Assembly (NCBI RefSeq): GCF_020177375.1 | Contig: NZ_JAIWHV010000001.1 | Coordinates: 1-64,000, forward strand | From: Saliphagus infecundisoli | GTDB taxonomy: Archaea > Halobacteriota > Halobacteria > Halobacteriales > Natrialbaceae | Reading direction: 5' to 3' | Length of the DNA: 64,000 nt | Shown here: positions 53,282-56,446 of the stretch, piece by piece | Layout of the letters: each line of letters starts with the position of its first letter | Position numbering within the stretch: the first letter of the stretch is position 1 | Translations under genes and position numbers: made by a program | Notes under the pieces: model-generated | Told to the model about the DNA's origin: nothing | The model's database searches: none | Seen by the model: only the letters and a program-made list of their open reading frames with translations

Positions 53282-53411
53282 TTCGCACTACCCGTCGGGG
53301 TTTCTCGGCTCTCCGATATAATTCATTCACTTGCAGGCGAGATCCGACGCGCTCTACGGGCGGAGCGGACCGTTTGCAAACAGTTATTGGGTGGCTACGG
53401 CATGGACGGGC

Positions 53412-54545
53412 ATGGCGAGCGAGTTACGACGTCGGGACGTCCTCCGGGTTTCGGGGGCCCTCGCGCTCGTGGGGGCGGCAGGCTGTCTCGACGACGTCAT
53501 GGGGGGGACCTCGGAGGAGAACGGCTCCGACGGGGACGATCCGACGCCCGTGGACGAAAACGACACCGAGACCGCCGAGGGGACGGACGATCCCGACGAC
53601 GGCGAGGGAACCAATAGAACCGACGGGGCCGGGGGGTCGAACGACTCCGAGGGGAGCGACGACGGTGGCGCCAACGAGACCGGCGATACGGACGAAATCA
53701 CCGACTCGAACGCGACCGACGAGTCCGTGGATCCAAACGGGACCGGAGGTGATGGCGGCGAGAACGACTCCGGGCAGCGAGACGACGAGGACGCCGAAAC
53801 CGGCGGATCGAACGAGACTGAGAGCAGTGACGGCGAGGAGGAGGTAGCCGATGCGGAGGGGACCGAAACGGAAGCCGACGACTCGGCCGAGGAGAATGCC
53901 AACGATTCGGCCGAGGACGGCGATGGGGGCGAAGAGAGGGGCGAAGGGAACGGGGAGGGAGACGATGGCGGGGACGGCGGCACCGGCGGGGAGAGCCAGT
54001 CCACCGAGCCCCCCGAGGGGTTCGTCACCTACACCAACGACGAACTGGGGTATTCGATCGCCCACCCCGAGGGCTGGGAGGTCGAGGAGAGCGGCGAGGA
54101 GGTGTACGTCGGCGACCCCGAGAGCCGCCGGGAGCTGGGCGTCCTGACCCTCGACGCGGCGGCGTTCGACTCCAGCGAGGCGCTTTCCGCGGAGTTCCTC
54201 TCCAACCTCGAGGCCGACTACGAGGGCGTCGAGGTCCGCGAGGAGGGCGACCGGAGCCTCGCGTCGGGCCAGGACGCCCGCCTGGTCGACGTCGCCTACG
54301 GCGATCCCGAGGGCGAGCGCGGCCGCCGGCGCTCGCGGCTGCTGTTCGCGACCGATCCCGAGACGGACGCGGGCTACGTGGCCGAGGTCGCCGCGCCCGC
54401 GGAGGCGTTCGACGACGCTCTCGCCGAGCGCGCGGAGACGATGCTCGCGTCGTTCCGGATCGAGAGCGGGGAGAGCACGGAGCGGATCGGCGGCCCGCGG
54501 CTCACGCGCCCCCTGGCTCGAGCCGGGACCGGGATCGGCTCGTAA
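53412..54545 (+). CDS. Tat lipoprotein with long acidic linker and PsbP-like domain
   Basis: A 377-residue surface protein. The signal has the Tat motif RRRDVLR and lipobox GAAGC (Cys near residue 25). Residues about 35-200 are low-complexity Gly, Asp, Glu, Asn, Ser and Thr and act as a long acidic spacer. The C-terminal part, from FVTYTNDELGYSIAHPEGWE on, is a PsbP/DUF1795-like domain seen on haloarchaeal cell surfaces. ATG 53412 precedes the signal directly. The linker is rich in N-glycosylation sites (NxT/S). Confidence 0.8.
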   Translation: MASELRRRDVLRVSGALALVGAAGCLDDVMGGTSEENGSDGDDPTPVDENDTETAEGTDDPDDGEGTNRTDGAGGSNDSEGSDDGGANETGDTDEITDSNATDESVDPNGTGGDGGENDSGQRDDEDAETGGSNETESSDGEEEVADAEGTETEADDSAEENANDSAEDGDGGEERGEGNGEGDDGGDGGTGGESQSTEPPEGFVTYTNDELGYSIAHPEGWEVEESGEEVYVGDPESRRELGVLTLDAAAFDSSEALSAEFLSNLEADYEGVEVREEGDRSLASGQDARLVDVAYGDPEGERGRRRSRLLFATDPETDAGYVAEVAAPAEAFDDALAERAETMLASFRIESGESTERIGGPRLTRPLARAGTGIGS

Positions 54546-54997
54546 CCCACGCGGGAACGGCGCGGTCGGACGAGTGCCTATCGCCGGAATCGCTCGGACC
54601 GACCGGCGAAACGGCGTCCGTTCGTCGGCGGCCGACGGTCGTTCGGTGTCGTCTGTCCGGGAGTAATCCGCTTCGTTCCCGCGGAACCGATCACGTTGCC
54701 GCTGTTTCGGACCGAAACCAACGGCTTCCACCGGCGAAACGGACCACCCGAGCGTGGACCGAAACGCCGTACGGAGGCGGATCGGGGCGTCCATCGCGCG
54801 ATCGAGCCGATCGCTACGGCCGGTAGTAACCGATTGATCGGCTCGGGTCCCGAACGGACGAGCTGCTTCGGTCCGCCGCGCGTCCGAAACCGGCTGAAAC
54901 GATCGTCAATCAGGGACTGGACGGCGCAACGGTGGCTGCCCTTTATTCTGAAATCCGGTCAAGGAGTCGGACGCCCCACCACGGGGCGAGAGAGACA
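54546..54997. other. Intergenic stretch without a supported gene (452 bp)
   Basis: No gene is seen. The sequence has scattered copies of a GGACCGAAAC/CGGCGAAACGG motif (for example near 54605, 54703, 54736 and 54758), some in opposite orientation. Its 3' end carries a CCCTTTATTCTG promoter box at about 54939 that belongs to the Tat protein gene beginning at 54998, leaving a leader of roughly 30 bases. Confidence 0.5.
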
Positions 54998-55600
54998 ATG
55001 AGCGACGAGATATCGACCGACGACTCGAGACGATCGTTTATGAAAAAGGGCGCGCTCGCCGCCGGCGCGCTGGCCATCGGCGCAGGCGCGTCCGCGAACA
55101 GTGTCGCCGCCCAGGAAGACGGGAACGCCCTCGTCTTCTCGTACGACTACCACCCGGGACAGAGCTTCGACGTGGTCGCCCAGCTCGAACAGAGCACGAC
55201 CGTCAACGTCCTCCAGGTCGACGACGAAACGGTCTCGGAGATCTCCCAGCCCGACGACTACACGGGCCACGTCATCCGCTACGACCTCGACGGGTCCGCG
55301 GGGATCACCGCGTTCCTGTTCTCCCAGGACGTCAGCCTCAGTGCCGGCGACAGCGGGACACTGGGTGAGGACGCCTCGATGTTCAGCCCCGAACTCAACC
55401 TCCTCTCGACCGACCTCGGCGGCGGAGGCGGCGGCAACGGAGGGAACGGAAACGGCAACGGCAATGGAGGCGGAAATGGCGGTGGCAATGGAGGCGGAAA
55501 CGGCGGTGGCAATGGAGGCGGAAACGGCGGTGGCAATGGAGGCGGAAACGGCGGCGGCAATGGAGGCGGAAACGGCGGCGGCAACGGGGGCGGTAACTGA
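54998..55600 (+). CDS. Tat-exported protein with novel domain and GGGN-repeat tail
   Basis: A 200-residue secreted protein. The Tat signal DDSRRSFMKKG and Ala-rich core end at AAQEDG (about residue 42), without a lipobox. The mature domain (residues about 42-140) has GNALVFSYDYHPGQSFDVVA, VSEISQPDDYTGHVIRYDL and EDASMFSPELNLLST. I do not recognise the domain; it has a beta-sandwich look. A tail of about 60 residues is almost pure (GGGN)n, coded by 24-bp tandem units. Two more copies of the domain follow at 55600 and 55955. Likely a cell-envelope or matrix protein (inference). Confidence 0.78.
   Translation: MSDEISTDDSRRSFMKKGALAAGALAIGAGASANSVAAQEDGNALVFSYDYHPGQSFDVVAQLEQSTTVNVLQVDDETVSEISQPDDYTGHVIRYDLDGSAGITAFLFSQDVSLSAGDSGTLGEDASMFSPELNLLSTDLGGGGGGNGGNGNGNGNGGGNGGGNGGGNGGGNGGGNGGGNGGGNGGGNGGGNGGGNGGGN
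55466..55597 (+). repeat. 24-bp tandem repeats coding (GGGN)n
   Basis: Five near-identical 24-bp units run from 55466 to 55585 and a partial unit follows. Each encodes GGGNGGGN. Differences between units are silent (aat/aac, ggt/ggc). Unit gain or loss would keep the frame, so tail length can vary between cells. Confidence 0.85.
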
Positions 55601-55920
55601 TGGCGCTCCAGGAGGACGGCAACGTCCTCGTCTTCGCCTACGACTACCATCCCGGTCAGAGCTTCGAGGTCGTCGCGGAACTCGAACAGGCCACGACGGT
55701 CAGCTCTCTTCAGGACGACGACGAGACGGTCTCGGAGATCTCCCAGCCCGACGACTACTCGGGCTACGTCATCCGCTACGACATCGGCGACGGTGCGGGG
55801 ATCACCGCGTTCCTGTTCTCCCAGGACGAGAACCTGAGCGCCGACGATACCGGGAGCCTCGGCGAGGACGCCTCGATGTTCAGCCCCACGCTCAACCTCC
55901 TCTCGACCCAGCTCGACTGA
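55600..55920 (+). CDS. Second copy of the domain, no signal peptide
   Basis: A 106-residue protein that consists of only the novel domain: EDGNVLVFAYDYHPGQSFEV, VSEISQPDDYSGYVIRYDIG and EDASMFSPTLNLLST. It is about 70 per cent identical by eye to the mature part of the gene before, at both protein and DNA level, so this is a recent duplication. It has no signal, and its ATG overlaps the previous TGA (TGATG), so translation is probably coupled. It may remain in the cytosol, or be a truncated duplicate. Confidence 0.72.
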   Translation: MALQEDGNVLVFAYDYHPGQSFEVVAELEQATTVSSLQDDDETVSEISQPDDYSGYVIRYDIGDGAGITAFLFSQDENLSADDTGSLGEDASMFSPTLNLLSTQLD

Positions 55921-55954
55921 GGGGTCTCGGTTTCCGTTTTCGTCTCGAACGCCA

Positions 55955-56446
55955 ATGTCGGAACACATCGCCCCTTCGCGCGTGGTTCTTGCCGGCACCG
56001 ACGTTCCGGAACACGCCAGTGATGGCTGTCGGAACGAGTCGGCCAGTGTCGGCCCGGCCACCGCCACGGACGGCGAGGCTACCGATACCGAGGCGGACTC
56101 GGAGCCGTTCGTCCTGGTCGCGATGGACGATTACCGACCCGGACTACGGTTCGAACTGATGGAGCGATTGCCGGCGCCGATCTCGGTGGCGATGCTTACG
56201 TCCCCCGTCGGCGAGCAGCCGTCGGTTCTCTCCCGGCCCGACGAGTACGTCGGCTACGTCGGCCGGTCGGTGTTCGACAGCGGACAGGTCAGGGGGTTCA
56301 CGACCGTGTTCAGCCGGCGCTCTCTGGAGACGGAGGGCAGGTACGCCTTCGGACGCGATGCGGGGGTCTTCAGCGTCGAGCTCCACCTCCTCCGGGCGAC
56401 GGTTCGTCGGAGCGAGTCCGACGCCGGCGAGTCTCTACCCGTGTGA
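55955..56446 (+). CDS. Third, divergent copy of the domain
   Basis: A 163-residue protein. Residues about 52-150 match the domain of the two genes before: VLVAMDDYRPGLRFELME, VLSRPDEYVGYVGRSVFD, AGVFSVELHLLRAT line up with YDYHPGQSF, SQPDDY and MFSPELNLLS. It has a 50-residue hydrophilic N-terminal extension, a charged C-terminal tail and no signal peptide. Identity to the others is low, so this is an older copy. Function unknown. Confidence 0.68.
   Translation: MSEHIAPSRVVLAGTDVPEHASDGCRNESASVGPATATDGEATDTEADSEPFVLVAMDDYRPGLRFELMERLPAPISVAMLTSPVGEQPSVLSRPDEYVGYVGRSVFDSGQVRGFTTVFSRRSLETEGRYAFGRDAGVFSVELHLLRATVRRSESDAGESLPV

Follow-up and report, generated by a model that had tools for sequence, protein, structure and literature searches.

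An undescribed haloarchaeal family of small, putatively exported proteins with signal-bearing and signal-less copies side by side

The three-gene locus

The window, the whole stretch of 64,000 nucleotides from Saliphagus infecundisoli that was analyzed, carries three tandem genes, termed A, B, and C, that share a domain of approximately 100 residues. Gene A (54998-55600, + strand) encodes 200 amino acids made up of a Tat-type signal, a ~102-residue domain, and a 60-residue GGGN-rich tail. Its signal peptide (DSRRSFMKKGAL...SVAA, then Q; 54998..55111, +) scores 18.6 bits against NCBIfam TIGR01409, for which the cut-off is 16.7, and the succession of a twin-arginine motif, a hydrophobic region, and an AxA site (SRRSFMKKGAL...SVAA, with Q next) marks A as a predicted Tat substrate. 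The junction between signal and mature protein reads ...DDSRRSFMKKGALAAGALAIGAGASANSVAA followed by QEDGN..., and the shared domain (55112..55417, +; Profile A3, E=7e-45) ends at residue 140. The tail (55418..55597, +) is composed of 12 GGGN units in 60 residues, as seen both in the translation and in a 24-bp tandem repeat of 7 copies (55427-55597), and is closed by the stop TGA at 55598-55600. A sequence-only reading of this DNA had described the three reading frames with their common domain, and A as a Tat-type protein with a GGGN tail of ~60 residues; all three are present as described, and so are the signal and the tail.

Gene B (55600..55920, +; 106 aa) is the bare domain, coupled to A by TGATG, its start lying within the stop of A. 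It is 78% identical to A over aligned columns, begins at the mature residue, and carries no twin-arginine signal; an in-frame stop just upstream of B, found in a second A-B pair and in relatives, leaves no space for one. The second pair, which is without C, belongs to the same assembly (G000:C9:63715-64517, on a 72-kb contig with different flanks), and its domains are 99% (A) and 95% (B) identical to those of the window pair. In coupled loci, the last GG[DE] codons of A are often also the Shine-Dalgarno sequence of B (GGAGGTGA). A family-wide C-terminal signal GG[NDE] on the tails of A was considered and rejected: in coupled loci, the motif doubles as this Shine-Dalgarno sequence, and only 20 of 49 GN-poor tails end in it.

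Gene C (55955..56446, +; 163 aa) is a diverged third copy, with its domain at about 56099-56404 (profile E=4.9e-30). It shares 31% identity with A and joins the A/B family with E=9e-9 by single sequence and 5e-30 by profile. No RRxF precedes a hydrophobic stretch in C, and a twin-arginine signal was not recognized in it. C had been read as an old copy with a new N-terminus; the divergence stands, but the N-terminus is not simply new, as relatives keep Tat-like remains there (AMKRGVIAAGALAAGASALDTG in locus L101 and STRRSFLNYDALAASALVIGTADAS in L037). On the tree, the C clade has a support of 99* and the B clade 97*. The window also holds, upstream of A, a gene resembling a Tat lipoprotein (53331-54545), in which a long spacer is acidic and of low complexity.

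The A-B-C order is kept across genera. In the window genome and its relative G100, the dS between A and B within a genome is 0.40 and 0.45, compared with 1.0-1.3 between genomes; the same-genome pairing of A with B is backed by 34 informative sites, and the pairing of orthologs by 2. This pattern points to gene conversion or parallel duplication of A and B in these two genomes. The earlier view of B as a recent signal-less copy joined by TGATG therefore stands for the missing signal and the coupling, but not for a recent addition, given the order shared across genera and an A/B pair homogenized or re-duplicated.

The domain family and its tails

The A-B-C locus belongs to a haloarchaeal family, not described before, of small and presumably secreted proteins whose ~100-residue domain is predicted to be mostly beta. 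The domain had nothing significant in the Pfam, NCBIfam, PHROGs, and PADLOC profiles and no match among PDB sequences (best E=0.16). A first contig scan with a single protein as query found nothing, and no paper on the domain family was found in the literature. AlphaFold models were built from the window sequence and relatives; those of the gene B copy (pLDDT 77, pTM 0.64) and of a Halomicrococcus A copy (pLDDT 86, pTM 0.80) are both mostly beta. Foldseek found no match at E<=1e-3 for either model in PDB, nor for the Halomicrococcus A model in BFVD, and the modeled domain is without a known fold as judged in these two collections. The claim that the family was unrecognized has thus withstood both profile searches and predicted-structure comparison. 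Two of 32 members match bacterial SH3 (SH3_3, PF08239) weakly, with a best E of 0.005 that is not significant family-wide, and SH3 is absent from the fold matches listed for the AlphaFold models.

Two RefSeq proteins of the same family by sequence, WP_235217989.1 and WP_246975992.1, are named "calcium-binding protein," and other relatives are named "twin-arginine translocation signal domain-containing protein" or "hypothetical protein." The domain has no Pfam match to EF-hand or RTX calcium-binding profiles, and the calcium-binding name is unsupported in this analysis; a weak binding of cations by the acidic tails of relatives is conceivable. Cysteines are nearly absent from the domain, so copper carriage by it is not proposed.

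Members occur in 72 of the 125 genomes from the window's own family, the Natrialbaceae, a recurrence by which the shared domain is not due to chance. Across 394 genomes sampled from the whole class, the domain occurs only in the Natrialbaceae and one other family (f6), which apparently includes Haladaptatus and Halomicrococcus. An origin from viruses or plasmids was rejected: phages and viral contigs hold no homologue of the domain, and plasmid copies are all on haloarchaeal replicons. The neighborhood of many loci includes thyA, folA, acnA, and YyaL; this recurrence was rejected as a functional clue, as it reflects a shared chromosomal position. In one clade (L125, L136, L138, L140, L147, and L153), domain copies are adjoined by a neighbor family, cluster 16, which by its look is an HTH regulator of the bacterio-opsin-activator type.

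The tails are interchangeable and of low complexity, being GGN-rich, PEDE, DDDE, or NET-rich, the last with about two N-glycosylation sequons per 100 residues. The GGGN tail is just one of these many types, and the earlier likening of the layout to matrix proteins is not supported. In one clade, highly acidic tails end in a conserved motif, DDGI[FL]G or similar (L110, L125, L131, L139, L141, L148, L149, L151, and L154).

The leader and its promoter box

Gene A is preceded by a promoter box (54926..54935, +), a TATA-like TTTAT located 6 bp past the box (54942..54946, +; alignment A6), and a GC dyad, CGCCCC-ACCAC-GGGGCG, in its 5' leader (54972..54988, +). The box of the window is the variant GCAACGGTGG of what reads GRAACRRTSG in relatives, with AAC invariant over 58 aligned leaders. 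The leader of self-promoted copies consists of GRAACRRTSG, six bases, YTTAT, ~30 bases, the CCCC-GGGG dyad, and GTGAGAGAC-ATG. The CCCC-GGGG dyad is about 10-20 bases ahead of the start codon, and a CCC...GGG dyad precedes 110 of the 142 copies that were checked. A leader RNA hairpin was rejected and the element termed a conserved dyad: the window dyad folds with -15.1 kcal/mol (z=-2.3), but the mean z over 110 leaders is only -0.6, RNAalifold gave no consensus pairs, and there was no Rfam match.

Model R1 matches the window leader (C11:54922-54999, E=3e-12), and the leader model gave strong E-values only at family genes in 19 genomes, with four weaker ones elsewhere (6e-6 to 9e-4). The exact pattern GRAACRRTSG-N6-YTTAT has 1-4 sites each in 64 of 125 genomes, compared with 3 over all 125 for the reversed control. 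Outside the family, 34 of 47 box-TATA sites examined are directly upstream of a Tat-exported halocyanin/glucose-sorbosone dehydrogenase (7 of 10 in the first genome set, with the domains confirmed); these sites come from related species and are not independent, and they span two dehydrogenase types and several genera. The promoter box of the family occurs mainly before the domain family itself and before Tat-exported halocyanin/PQQ sugar dehydrogenases. Natrialbaceae examples of the latter are G024:C1:1201009, G025:C1:129678, G028:C1:2061957, and G055:C1:145163, and the same pattern is seen at further loci (L200-L207 and L228-L273). Some genomes with the box before a halocyanin/sugar dehydrogenase lack the domain family, and the genome of the window itself showed no such link. 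Nothing on point was found in the literature on haloarchaeal halocyanin/sugar dehydrogenase. In genome G033 (L155:3893-4834, - strand), one fusion protein combines the family domain with a halocyanin domain at the C-terminus (128.7 bits against a cut-off of 93.8). The halocyanin (TIGR03102, PF00127) and halocyanin/GSDH (PF07995) families resemble this family in Tat export (predicted here), in the common box, and through the L155 fusion, but the family domain itself matches neither.

Signal-bearing and signal-less copies

The 97 fetched loci and the window yielded 190 distinct domain copies, among which 105 have an intact RR ahead of a hydrophobic stretch and 85 do not. The non-RR copies fall into three groups: some, such as B, are bare domains that start with MVQD or MALQ; others form a clade, that of C, in which the N-terminus is new or decayed; and the rest mostly keep the signal, but with RR changed to RH, RY, RQ, RD, KG, KR, SG, SD, TR, EQ, QR, SQ, and others. 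In L111 and L114, RR is retained and the following hydrophobic position is lost, and both were counted as degenerate signals. An RR copy is located within 4 kb on the same strand for 78 of the 85; of the seven others, two are artefacts caused by a contig end and by duplicate removal, and five are orphans with no RR neighbor in the same locus (L047, L049, L145, L150, and L152). Among the loci examined, no genome has non-RR copies only. The locus layouts include RR-B-C (16), degenerate-RR (11), RR-B (6), RR-C (5), and RR alone (31), so a partner is not obligatory. RR presence changes state 17 times on the tree, at least nine of them on well-supported (starred) branches, the tree being of a short domain with many weak forks and with start codons picked by rule. 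An exported-type form beside signal-less copies, suggested before from the window only, is thus a conserved layout and firmer than first stated, the second and third copies being kept in many genera in spite of the single-copy loci.

Selection on the two classes was compared by pN/pS computed between close pairs. The domain has a pN/pS of 0.222 (0.169-0.282) in non-RR copies and 0.225 (0.168-0.295) in RR copies, and the signal-less domains are under the same constraint as the exported-type ones and are not decaying. Over the N-terminal 42 residues, the values are 0.35 (0.22-0.53) for degenerate and 0.22 (0.13-0.36) for RR copies, so the broken signal is mildly relaxed at most. Tail and RR do not invariably go together, as five genomes show (L125, L136, L140, L147, and L153), where the tail is on the non-RR neighbor and the RR copy is tail-less; in L156, an exported-type tail, Thr-rich and 115 residues long, is attached to a signal-less copy. 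Such tails suggest that these signal-less copies, too, end up outside the cell.

Repeated signal loss next to a neighbor with a constrained domain is most simply read as two products used together, and it suggests that the conserved signal-less copies work, and perhaps leave the cell, as partners of the exported protein. In Haloferax, the twin arginines are essential for Tat export (PMC2945643), and it is established that subunits without a signal can hitchhike through Tat. Complexes are transported already folded, and a single signal can suffice for all their subunits (PMC4273604), which is why co-export is favored here. Such hitchhiking would account for the repeated disappearance of the signal from one partner when the domain of that partner remains under constraint. 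A would be made as a Tat precursor that folds in the cytoplasm before export, its low-complexity tail forming a flexible surface extension, whereas B and C, or the broken-Tat copies of other clades, would have the same domain and no Tat ticket of their own. Homologous hetero-oligomers would assemble in the cytoplasm, aided by translational coupling, and the signal-less subunits would exit with A on the one signal. That same-domain hetero-oligomers form in this way and are exported on the signal of A is plausible, if somewhat short of an even chance. What the sequences show is the family, its layout, the recurrent RR loss, the equal constraint, and the shared promoter box; the hetero-oligomer, the co-export, and the surface role are inferred from them. 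Once outside, the complex may join the same response as the box-sharing Tat-exported halocyanin/sugar dehydrogenases. The wider proposal, that export signal and surface tail have repeatedly been divided among homologous subunits in a "one ticket per complex" Tat ratchet, within a two-family regulon with these dehydrogenases, is offered tentatively and with some doubt.

The known hitchhikers HybOC and PaoABC (PMC4273604) likewise have signal-bearing and conserved signal-less subunits encoded together. They differ in being cofactor enzymes of unlike subunits, whereas here one small domain would act as both carrier and partner, and no motif for a cofactor was seen in it. Several observations go against co-export, namely, the five orphans, the 31 loci with a lone RR copy, and the constrained N-terminus of the broken signals, which a dead signal would not need. 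Had a redundant signal been lost neutrally, the picture would be the same but for the domain constraint. C may also work elsewhere, given its charge: C-type domains have a net charge of -4 per 100 residues, compared with -18.5 for A, and more Lys/Arg.

The same charge difference, together with the unlike N-terminus of C, would fit a cytoplasmic binder of the acidic A. B and C might remain inside and bind the A precursor as a same-fold chaperone, as an anti-aggregation or dosage partner, or as an immunity-like copy within the producer, to which the complete absence of a signal in B, the A-B coupling, and the equal domain constraint would also be suited. This is rather unlikely, however, as exported-type tails occur on signal-less copies in the six loci named above, some non-RR copies are at separate loci, and A is without a toxin-like feature. 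The immunity-like role proposed at first is not supported, with no match of the domain to a toxin or defense family in Pfam, NCBIfam, or PADLOC, no immunity partner, and no virus match. For the degenerate class, and not for B or C, export or anchoring without Tat, by a Sec signal or a membrane anchor, is improbable; the hydrophobic stretch and the AxA site are retained, the N-terminal value of 0.35 indicates constraint, and broken-RR copies are slightly more hydrophobic over 12 residues (p=0.01), but no difference is seen over 18 residues (p=0.68), where Sec signals would as a rule exceed Tat signals in hydrophobicity (PMC2945643), and B and C are left unexplained. Ordinary tandem duplication, with the second signal decayed by drift and a moonlighting or dosage role of cytosolic copies not tied to A, agrees with the single copy of many genomes, the frequent duplications, and the homogenization of A and B in two genera, but equal purifying selection on non-RR domains, the long conservation of the B and C clades, and their repeated adjacency make it quite improbable.

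What is new here are the RR/non-RR neighbor pairs with recurrent RR loss and equal constraint, and the common promoter box together with the halocyanin fusion. The analysis adds to the haloarchaea an unnamed and widespread family, predicted to be exported and without a known fold match in PDB or BFVD, and it questions a database name. The box held in common with blue-copper sugar dehydrogenases is a concrete lead on function, and the repeated loss of RR on one of two equally constrained neighbors provides a natural, many-replicate test of Tat hitchhiking in archaeal genome evolution.
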